A stretch of DNA of 64,000 bases from Synechococcus sp. BSA11S (GTDB lineage Bacteria; Cyanobacteriota; Cyanobacteriia; PCC-6307; Cyanobiaceae), in the NCBI RefSeq assembly GCF_014224355.1, contig NZ_VNWP01000004.1, positions 1-64,000 on the forward strand, read 5' to 3'. A program made the position numbers and the translations under genes. Below the pieces are notes generated by a model. The model was not told the DNA's origin. It was given only the letters and a program-made list of their open reading frames with translations, and did no database searches. This document shows, piece by piece, positions 3,718-53,760 of the stretch (within the stretch, counting starts at the first letter, position 1; each line of letters opens with the position of its first letter).

Positions 3718-4107
3718 ATGGTCTGCCCATGCAGGCGGTTTGGCGCACTGTTGCCGGTTGTTCTGGGGGCAGCCTTGGCTCTTCTTTCGGCTTGGCCTCC
3801 CTCGGTGATTGCTGCTCCGCAGGGAAGGTCTTTTTCTGATGCGCTCTGGAGGATGATTGAGTCCTGTCTGGCACCTGAGCAGGCGGGAAGTTACTGCAAG
3901 TATCCCTCCTTTCTCCTCTCCTGCTGTCATGATCGCTGCCGCCCGGATCAGGGTGTGGTTTGGGCTCTGACTCCAGGCCATGTGGCCATCCGCAACTTCA
4001 ACAGTTGTGGTTGTGAGCCTGCCTTCGTGGCTGGCTTGGCCATGCCTTGCCAGAAGATCACAGGCCTGGAGTACCCACGGCGGCCGAATGGAACCTGTCC
4101 GATCTGA
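3718..4107 (+). CDS. Secreted Cdh-like protein (CDP-diacylglycerol diphosphatase-like N-terminal part only)
   Basis: About 129 residues from the ATG at 3718; earlier in-frame starts exist, but this one begins a good signal peptide (RRFGALLPVVLGAALALLSA, cleavage near AAP). The mature part shows the N-terminal pattern of CDP-diacylglycerol pyrophosphatases: ALWRMIESCLAPEQ, a G-x-V segment, and AMPCQKITGLEYP, comparable with the family LLxPTxxITGIESP. The family continues with about 100 residues including a HIT-like H-x-H-x-H site; here the protein stops soon after the LEYP segment. It contains nine Cys in the mature part, unusual for Cdh. So it is either a truncated gene or a distinct Cys-rich secreted family. 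Catalysis is unlikely. Confidence 0.4.
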   Translation: MVCPCRRFGALLPVVLGAALALLSAWPPSVIAAPQGRSFSDALWRMIESCLAPEQAGSYCKYPSFLLSCCHDRCRPDQGVVWALTPGHVAIRNFNSCGCEPAFVAGLAMPCQKITGLEYPRRPNGTCPI

Positions 4108-36949: not shown

Positions 36950-38289
36950 ATGAAACCGATCTATGACCAGGCCATGCGGGCCGAGATCCGCGATCGCATG
37001 AGCCCGCCCAACCGGGGGAGCGTGGCGGAGATTGCCCGCTCCACCGGGATCACCACCCAGACCCTCTACAACTGGCGCAGGCAGTGGCAGAACGAGGGGC
37101 AGCTGGTGCCGGCCACCAGCTGCCGCCTGAGCAGTGGGGCGCATCGGACAAGCTGGCCGCAGAAAGAAAAAGCTCTTTCGGAGGCGGCAACATTGCTGTA
37201 GCGGAACGCTTCCGCGAAGCGGTTGCTCTCAAAAAAAATCGATCAGCTTTGGCTGCGAGAAGAGGAGTCCTGATTCCGCCAGAGCAGAGAAATAAAGCCA
37301 TGGACTTTCTCTATGAAGGCCTCCATGCAGGAGCTTCCATCAAGGCTGTTGTAGATCTGATCGGCACCTGTTCACGCACTCTGCGGCGCTGGGGGCTTGA
37401 TATCAGCGACCAGGGATTCAGGGTGGATCGCCGCAAGGGTGCCCCATGTGAAGTGGCTCACAGATTCACGGCGTAAGATCGTAGCCATTCTTGCTGAGGA
37501 GAGAGTGGATGTGGGTTCAGAGTCGACGATCTATCGCATCATGCGGCAGGAAGGCCTTCTGAATCATCGTGGCAGGGCCCGATCTCCCCGCGAGCCAAGG
37601 CCAGTCCCGGTGCTGGAGGCAACAGGCATCCATCAAGTGCTGGCATGGGATATCACTCTGTTGCCTGGCCCGGCGAAAGGTCAGTTCTTCTACCTTTACA
37701 TGGTGCTGGATGTGTGGAGCCGCCGCATCCTTGGAGTGGAAGTGCACGAGCGGGAATGCAGCGAGCTGGCCAGCGCATTCTTTGATCGCGTCTGCCGCGA
37801 TGAAGGAATCAGCAAGGAGACTGCTGCGGTCGTTCACTCGGACAATGGCGCCCCCATGCGATCATTCACATTGGCTGCCAAGATGGCGGAGCTGGGTGTG
37901 TCACTCTCGTTCTCGAGGCCGCGCGTGAGCAACGACAACGCCTATGCCGAATCGTGGTTCCGCACGATGTAGACGCAGTCTCGCCGAGCGGTTAATACCA
38001 CCAGAGTGATCCGCTCAGGCGATTCCGGGATCTGCTCTCGGTGAAAGCCTGGGTGGAAGGCTTTGTCGACTGGTACAACGCTGAGCACCGGCACAGCGGC
38101 ATCAAGTATGTGACGCCCAATCAGCGGCACTACGGCCAGGCGGATGCGATCTGCGCGATCCGTCAGCAGACCTACGAAGAGGCTCGGCAGAAGCATTCGC
38201 AGCGCTGGAGTCGTCACATCCGTGACTGGAGCCTGCCACGGGTTGTGAGCATCAACCATCCCCGTCCCCAGCAACCTGTCGCGGCTTGA
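36950..38289 (+). mobile_element. Decayed IS3-family element (orfA/orfB in several frames)
   Basis: Transposase pieces occur in order but in changing frames. orfA helix-turn-helix: NRGSVAEIARSTGITTQTLY, NWRRQW; then PPEQWGASDKLAA and KEKALSEAATLL in different frames. orfB starts with IPPEQR…LRRWGLD, then SRRKIVAILAEERV. Its DDE domain has VLAWDITLLPG, VVHSDNGAPM and SFSRPRVSNDNAYAESWFRT, then a TAG stop at 37970. The C-terminus VEGFVDWYNAEHRHSGI resumes to 38289. Lesions include at least two frameshifts, an internal deletion after DKLAA, an A-tract change near 37231-37238, the TAG and a small palindromic insertion. It cannot encode an active enzyme. Terminal repeats were not resolved. Confidence 0.85.
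37193..37227. repeat. 25-bp double palindrome inserted in the IS with a 5-bp target duplication
   Basis: TTGCT at 37193-37197 and again at 37223-37227 flank a 25-bp insert (37198-37222) that is absent from the reconstructed transposase frame. The insert holds two overlapping hairpins: GCGGAA-CGC-TTCCGC (37201-37215) and CGCTTC-CGC-GAAGCG (37207-37221). Joining the sequence across one TTGCT rebuilds …EAATLL-LKK…, the expected protein, apart from the adjacent A-tract. The insert brings an in-frame TAG. This looks like a transposed miniature element. Confidence 0.7.
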
Positions 38290-52323: not shown

Positions 52324-53760
52324 TTACTTGATGTACTCCTTGAGCACACCATTGCGGTTGGGGTGGCGTAGCTTGCGCAGGGCCTTGGCTTCGATCTGGC
52401 GAATTCGCTCGCGGGTCACGTCAAAGATCTGGCCAATCTCCTCAAGGGTTTTCATGCGACCGTCGTCGAGGCCATAGCGAAGGCGCAGAACATCCCGCTC
52501 TCTCGGACTGAGGGTTGCCAGCACCCCTTCAAGATCTTCCCTTAGAAGATTCTTGGCCACATCCTGCTCAGGATTCTCGATGTCGGCCTCGATGAAGTCG
52601 CCCAGGCGTGAATCTTCTTCCTTGCCGATCGGTGTCTCCAGGGAAATGGGGAGTTGGGCAGACTTGGCGATGAAGCGGAGCTTCTCGATCGTCATCTCCA
52701 TGCTTTCAGCAATCTCCTCCTCAGTGGGTTTGCGGCCAAACTCCTGCGACAGCACCTTGGTGGTCTTCTTGATGCGTGAGATGGTTTCGTAGAGGTGAAC
52801 GGGCAAGCGAATGGTGCGGCTCTGGTCGGCGATGGCACGGGTGATCGCCTGACGGATCCACCAGGTGGCATAGGTCGAGAACTTGTAACCCTTCTCGTGG
52901 TCGAACTTCTCGGCGGCGCGGATCAGGCCGAGGCTGCCTTCCTGGATCAGATCCTGGAAGGAAAGGCCGCGGTTCATGTACTTCTTGGCAATCGAAACCA
53001 CAAGGCGAAGGTTCGACTGAACCATTTTTTCCTTGGCCCGGCGCCCCAGCATCAGACGCCGACGGAATTTGACCGGTGGCATGTCCACCAGTACCGCCCA
53101 TTCCTTGTTGTCGGGATGATGACCGTTGTCCTGCTCGAACTGGGCGGCCAGCTCCTCAAGCAGCAGCAGATCAGCGATCTTGCGCGCCAGCTCGATTTCC
53201 TCATCGGGACGGAGCAGACGGATTCGGCCGATTTCCTGCAGGTAGACCCGGATCGAATCTTCGGTGTAAACGCCCTTGGGTCCAACCTTGATGCTGGCCA
53301 GCGCCTTTTCCTTGGCGGTTATTTTCTTGTCCTTGGCGCCATCGGCGGCACCCAGCAACTGGTCGGCTGCGGCGCTCAGATCCTGGCTGCTCGCGGCCAC
53401 GGCAGCCGCCTTGCCCGCCTCAGCCTTGGGCTTGGCCTTGGCTCTGGACTTGGGGGCCGCTTTGCTGGCCGTTGTCTTGGCTGCGGCCTTGGTGCCGCTG
53501 GTTTTGCCGGCTGGGCTTTTGCTGGTGGCCTTGGTGGCCGCCTTGCGGGTGCGCGTGACCTTGTTGGCCGCCGTCACGGCCGCCGCATCGGGACTGACAG
53601 CAGGGGAGTCCGGCGTCTGCCCGTCGTTCGCGCTGGCCTTGGATTTCTTGGCGGCGGCTTTCGGTTTGCCCTTGACCGCCACCTCGGCTCCCGTCTGAGC
53701 GGCGACGGTCAGGATTTCTGGAGCGCCTGGCTTGGGGCTGGCGGCGGACACTGGGGTCAT
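52324..53760 (-). CDS. rpoD: Principal sigma-70 factor with a long basic N-terminal tail
   Basis: About 478 residues from the ATG at 53760 ([11 protein letters not shown]). Sigma regions are complete: 1.2 ([20 protein letters not shown]), 2 ([40 protein letters not shown]), 3 ([20 protein letters not shown]) and 4 ([40 protein letters not shown]). Residues about 30-145 are low-complexity and Lys/Ala-rich, like histone H1 tails. It is the vegetative sigma factor, giving promoter recognition to RNA polymerase. Single gene; divergent from priA across about 390 bases. Confidence 0.95.

Follow-up and report, generated by a model that had tools for sequence, protein, structure and literature searches.

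The question raised by this locus is how a palindromic insert of this small size came to lie inside a transposase gene. The window, a stretch of 64,000 nt from Synechococcus sp. BSA11S, reads TTGCT (37193-37197), GTAGCGGAACGCTTCCGCGAAGCGG (37198-37222) and TTGCT (37223-37227) inside an IS3-family element. The first-pass annotation regarded it as a MITE-like palindromic element of 25 bp with a 5-bp target duplication. The sequence, coordinates and hairpin arms at 37193-37227 were all as it described, and the arms GCGGAA/TTCCGC and CGCTTC/GAAGCG pair perfectly. It was also right in seeing a very small, non-autonomous and dispersed mobile unit in an IS, as other copies and empty sites were found; its borders, its target duplication and its label need correction. 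We consider it probable (roughly 85%) that the feature is one copy of a 25-nt mobile family of Cyanobiaceae, which replaces a single A at its target, is inserted in trans as a folded single strand, and entered an IS3-family element here. The features of the locus are as follows.

36950 to 37201, forward strand: remnant orfA of the IS3-family element, which terminates in the TAG of the unit (from the sequence and the comparison with the sister copy)

37193 to 37198, forward strand: left flank of the target, TTGCTG; the unit enters after the G, in the target context Y-S-A (from the empty copies L090 and L091 and the target logo)

37199 to 37223, forward strand: mobile unit T-H1-T-H2-T, which replaces a single target A, net +24 nt (from comparison of filled and empty IS copies)

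37200 to 37210, forward strand: hairpin 1 (H1), AGCG-GAA-CGCT, with GNA triloop (from stem covariation)

37212 to 37222, forward strand: hairpin 2 (H2), CCGC-GAA-GCGG, with GNA triloop (from stem types and pair counts)

37224 to 37227, forward strand: TGCT of the host, which predates the insertion and with the last T of the unit mimics a TTGCT target duplication (from empty copies)

37231 to 37238, forward strand: A-run, presumed to be where the -1 frameshift from orfA into orfB takes place (from the sequence)

37397 to 37972, forward strand: interrupted part of orfB that contains the integrase core rve (PF00665, E 7.7e-15)

The 25-nt unit reads T-AGCGGAACGCT-T-CCGCGAAGCGG-T, and its 20-mer core with up to 3 mismatches occurred once in the window, with 0.01 occurrences expected in shuffles. 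The IS copy of the window is decayed. A sister copy lies on another contig of this genome (C40); relative to it, the window copy has lost 209 nt inside orfA at 37160/37161 and differs by a one-base indel near 37121. The unit is at the same place in both copies, and the sister copy's orfA, which is intact, gave a match to HTH_Tnp_1. In filled IS copies the in-frame TAG of the unit lies upstream of the A-run, whose role as frameshift site is presumed from IS3-family biology. A 91-nt stretch of the window gave no match in the plasmid collection searched.

With the orfA protein we searched 251 Cyanobiaceae genomes and found close relatives of the IS with and without the unit. The empty copies L090 and L091 have OrfA identities of 97% and 95%, and their junctions read GCAACATTGCTGATGCTGTCAAAAAAG and ATGCTATC, respectively. 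The empty copy L090 reads ...ACATTGCTGATGCTGTCAAAAAAG where the filled copy L092 reads ...ACATTGCTGTAGCGGAACGCTTCCGCGAAGCGGTTGCTGTCAAAAAAG, or, divided into three parts, GCAACATTGCTG-TAGCGGAACGCTTCCGCGAAGCGGT-TGCTGTCAAAAAAG; 25 nt stand in place of one A, a net gain of 24. In a more distant group of IS copies this junction is either empty (CTGCTGATCGCCTC) or occupied by another variant (CTGCTGTAGCCGCAGGCTTCTGCGAAGCAGCACGCCTC), also net 24. The empty copies place the unit at 37199-37223, so the borders 37198-37222 were misread. There is no target duplication, because the empty sites read TTGCTG/A/TGCT: TGCT stood downstream before the insertion, and the preceding T is the unit's own; the repeat seen by the first-pass annotation appears because the target itself is nearly repeated (TTGCT-GA-TGCT). 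Excising the insert with one TTGCT does keep the frame, as had been claimed, but the product differs from the true empty site; the insertion amounts to net 24 and not 30 nt.

A degenerate search pattern, GTAGNNGNANNCTTCYGCGNAGCRGT, was matched in 75 of 300 Cyanobiaceae genomes, and the reversed pattern used as control gave zero matches. Further copies, which had been proposed as a check of mobility, are present in the same genome (eight places) and across the family. Outside Cyanobiaceae the pattern was found in 1 of about 210 cyanobacterial genomes, as two imperfect matches. The 20-mer with up to 2 mismatches revealed copies in further sequence contexts. Exact 20-mer matches in proteobacteria and other non-cyanobacteria (L035-L038, L041, L042, L044-L048) do not start with GTAG and were taken to be chance coding matches. 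In the fetched loci there were 109 well-formed copies, forming about 60 to 65 site clusters by crude grouping; 84 of the 109 start with GTAG and 23 with CTAG. The plan T-H1-T-H2-T is fitted perfectly by 97 non-redundant copies. A search for the sequence of the element in the set of papers covered returned unrelated matches only.

The copies are mostly inside transposase and HNH genes. By motif recognition, not by family search, the host genes include IS1182, IS66, IS256, IS630, ISAs1, IS3 and IS5-like transposases, an HNH endonuclease gene and a GIY-YIG-like gene. Insertion occurs on either strand and in more than one reading frame; one frame of the unit reads TAG, and the other frames add about eight amino acids. 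Because the longest-ORF search is unreliable in GC-rich DNA, the frames given are restricted to sites with a recognisable known protein motif. Different copies of one HNH endonuclease gene family are struck at three positions, QPLML/IELLG, LVGG/ELSD and VDHIIP/KN (L151, L181, L195 and related loci).

Empty counterparts were found for 99 of 143 filled rows, and because empty sites were so plentiful, the borders, target and structure could be read exactly. Among Cyanobiaceae site pairs of at least 75% identity, 76 of 92 differ by exactly net 24, and several of the other values derive from gapped alignments of diverged pairs. The empty sites which the first-pass annotation proposed to compare thus exist; the 5-bp duplications expected at them are absent, as none of the 92 filled/empty pairs has a target duplication. 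The best pair, L126 (filled) and L179 (empty), are two IS copies in one complete genome; the alignment spans 826 nt and has 11 mismatches, and its only gap is of 24 nt. Among 80 sites, the base that is replaced is A in 75, the base before it is G or C in 73, and the one before that is T or C in 76, while position +3 of the target is G in 56. The target context is therefore Y-S-A, often Y-S-A-W-G. The base after the last T of the unit is often unlike that of the empty site, which is unexplained by simple replacement of one base. In GAAA/GAAG targets the change is A to G, and elsewhere T to A or G to A or T; these changes may be later mutations, because some of the pairs are diverged (75-85%). 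Copies are also nested. Two loci, L079 (near 2402-2440) and L152 (near 700, minus strand), each have a unit whose second hairpin is shorter, inserted in the GNA loop that closes the second hairpin of another unit; the GAAG of the host unit fits the target.

Each hairpin is 11 nt long, with a 4-bp stem and a triloop, and every loop is GNA (GAA, GCA, GGA or GTA). H1 was fully paired in 71 of 73 strict matches, in which the pattern had left its inner stem bases free, and its inner pairs are CC/GG, GC/GC, CG/CG, AC/GT and TC/GA. The stem of H2 is CCGC/GCGG (58), CTGC/GCAG (38) or CTCC/GGAG (5). Both stems vary by compensatory changes. For 48 distinct units the covariation score was 0.284. Shuffles gave 0.102, with 0 of 500 reaching the observed value, and slid structures scored 0.009-0.084. 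Pairing was present in 99% of cells for H1 and 98% for H2; the outer N-T-A/T-N-G pairing is weak (68%) and was not relied on. The two-hairpin fold is conserved.

GNA triloops are a class of extraordinarily stable DNA mini-hairpins, and they form in RNA too. DNA folding gave the two hairpins in all three copies tested; in RNA folding the window copy adopted another structure. This suggests a single-stranded DNA form, as support and not as proof, and the part of the argument that concerns GNA loops depends on their known chemistry.

With a covariance model of the unit, a related form was detected in 30 genomes outside Cyanobiaceae. This sister form, checked in fetched loci, is GTAGCTTGCTT-H2-GT with a first hairpin of 8 nt; the unit is 22 nt as T-AGCTTGCT-T-H2-T, which can also be written TAGCTTGCTT-H2-T. 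At least 25 copies are present in one genome. Long tRNA arrays hold many of the copies that were fetched (L249-L256, from other cyanobacteria), inside the T-loops of tRNA genes. Swapping the sister form for one A restored the T-loop GTTCRA in 11 of 11 tRNA copies (the tally is 7 if TTCGA alone is counted and TTCAA omitted), and ARAGORN called a tRNA in 10 of the 11 after the swap. It is an independent test of the boundary rule, as the tRNA data were unused in deriving it, and the Cyanobiaceae rule was applied as it stood. Copies in tRNA genes, in transposases and beside group II introns show that the element affects host genes as well as other mobile elements.

The replacement of one base is an unusual insertion signature which narrows the range of mechanisms, and an obvious enzyme is lacking; the genome of the window gave no match to Y1_Tnp or RVT_1. 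Because the element codes for nothing, the inserting activity would act in trans. The intermediate would most likely be a folded single strand, DNA or RNA, whose ends are drawn together by the two mini-hairpins. As the hairpins would unite the ends of the element, the strand could bridge the position of a single nucleotide when it is joined, and replication or reverse transcription would then copy it. The window copy entered the IS3-family element at the orfA/orfB junction, with its TAG ahead of the frameshift site, and afterwards the unit was probably either carried along by that IS or inserted anew at this site of related copies.

Insertion or copying of element RNA by a reverse transcriptase (RT), that of a group II intron or a different one, is a possible route, though we think it rather unlikely. 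Elhai and colleagues are said to have proposed RNA intermediates for the small dispersed repeats (SDRs) of cyanobacteria. RVT_1 genes were present in 8 of 15 element-rich and 1 of 15 element-poor genomes (p 0.014), and in the genomes G204, G242 and G168 group II introns (RF01999) begin precisely where an element copy ends. The RTs examined in these three genomes belong to group II introns (RF01999, RF00029), and several of these appear to use the element as target, so the association is confounded. The introns are at the CTAC (once CTAT) end of the element, on the opposite strand, as ...GTCTAC/TTGTGCCACGAG (L231-L234 in G204, L239 in G242, L241 in G168). All six introns of this type that were examined adjoin a good or degraded element copy; the introns of G023 (GTGTGTCACGAG) do not. 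Such a position better fits introns that use the element as hairpin target, and it looks as if the element is a structured target for them; attack of a group II intron on a structured DNA target is described in PMC10190682. Also against an RNA route, the window's genome, with its eight copies, and the rich genomes G163, G051, G261 and G077 had no RT match, and the window copy as RNA lacks the conserved two-hairpin fold. An element copy was also seen inside a group II intron, apparently ahead of the RT gene, at L239 (1114) and L241 (1161; minus-strand coordinates).

Beyond the preferred reading of a folded single strand inserted in trans, a broader idea can be offered tentatively. The unit would represent a class of transposase-free mobile DNA, in which a nuclease-resistant folded oligonucleotide, made of two GNA mini-hairpins whose ends adjoin, is joined into the one-nucleotide gap left by a lost A and replication fixes the insertion of 22-25 nt; the class would be cyanobacteria-wide, would hit transposase genes and the T-loops of tRNAs, and would offer group II introns sites at which to land. 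A folded-DNA plug in a one-nucleotide gap would, as speculation, explain both why one base is replaced and why a transposase is lacking. We hold this wider picture to be doubtful, about as much as the RNA route.

It is very unlikely that the unit is a REP/REPIN-type element, with GTAG end and hairpin, which depends for its movement on a Y1 (HuH) transposase associated with REPs (PMC3116915, PMC3733652). The 84 of 109 copies with GTAG begin with the REP tetranucleotide, REPs and RAYTs are reported in cyanobacteria (PMC6006769, PMC3733652), and GTAG-type REPs resemble the unit in being short, dispersed, sometimes genic hairpin DNA (PMC3733652, PMC3116915). However, Y1_Tnp was absent from the window's genome and the eight genus members examined, so that this genome has no Y1/RAYT gene, and the element was found in 7 of 23 Y1-positive and 55 of 228 other genomes (Fisher p 0.61). 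In addition, CTAG is also used (23 of 109), the unit has two separate 11-nt GNA hairpins where REPs have one long imperfect hairpin, one base is replaced, and genes and IS elements serve as sites, with many copies within genes.

It is still less credible, close to excluded in our judgement, that the unit is an inherited and immobile normal part of the IS3-family element which aids orfA/orfB expression. The homologous orfA/orfB junction is occupied in about ten diverged IS copies, and the unit sits directly before the A-run. However, the close relatives at 95-97% OrfA identity are empty, including seven copies in the complete genome G023, so the unit does not belong to the normal make-up of the IS family found in the window. 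The same unit is also present in IS1182, IS66, IS256, IS630, ISAs1 and HNH genes. In a tree of ten IS copies the filled and empty ones interleave and form no separate clades, and well-supported branches force at least two changes. This could be explained by recurrent insertion at CTG/A, IS-IS recombination or precise loss; some loss or recombination is possible because of this interleaving.

Equally improbable is a MITE-like 25-bp palindrome placed in trans by a DDE transposase with a 5-bp TTGCT duplication, since, although TTGCT repeats are present and the unit is mobile and non-autonomous, the true empty site is TTGCTG/A/TGCT, other site pairs have base replacement without duplication, and the ends are T...T without terminal inverted repeats. 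The unit resembles MITEs (for example Nezha in cyanobacteria, cited in PMC3733652) in being non-autonomous and needing functions in trans, but it is far shorter and lacks both their terminal inverted repeats and their target duplication, so that the MITE label does not hold.

The unit is among the smallest mobile DNAs known, and close to the lower size limit of anything mobile in genomes. The nearest known elements are the SDRs, which Elhai and colleagues reportedly described in 2008 from Nostoc punctiforme and relatives, that is from filamentous heterocyst formers, as mobile repeats of 21-27 nt. Three SDR families are said to share a secondary structure with compensatory changes, and copies to nest. 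The insertion rule makes the mechanism of cyanobacterial SDRs testable. The SDR work of Elhai et al. 2008 is cited in PMC4390886 and PMC3116915, and SDR5 enters HIP1 between the third and fourth base, GCG/ATCGC (PMC4390886), at a G/A step as the Cyanobiaceae unit does. The dispersed units of 25 nt (Cyanobiaceae) and 22 nt (sister) are within the SDR size range, and the Cyanobiaceae unit further matches SDRs in its conserved structure with compensatory changes and in its filled and empty sites and nested copies, which reveal mobility. It differs in host, Cyanobiaceae, and in stem sequences. By the description of SDRs, the Cyanobiaceae unit is probably of the SDR kind. The replacement of one A, the T-H-T-H-T plan, the copies in tRNA T-loops and the adjoining group II introns are established here. 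The Rickettsia palindromic elements (RPE; PMC3733652) are also small palindromic units in ORFs which add amino acids in frame; they have another host, one frame of our unit gives a TAG stop, and the likeness is a general resemblance.

The window has six T-(GNA hairpin)-T motifs in total, compared with 0.85 in mononucleotide shuffles. Four of these are single motifs outside the element, at 3891, 6803 and 63948 on the forward strand and at 52712 on the reverse strand, and they may be chance or unrelated.
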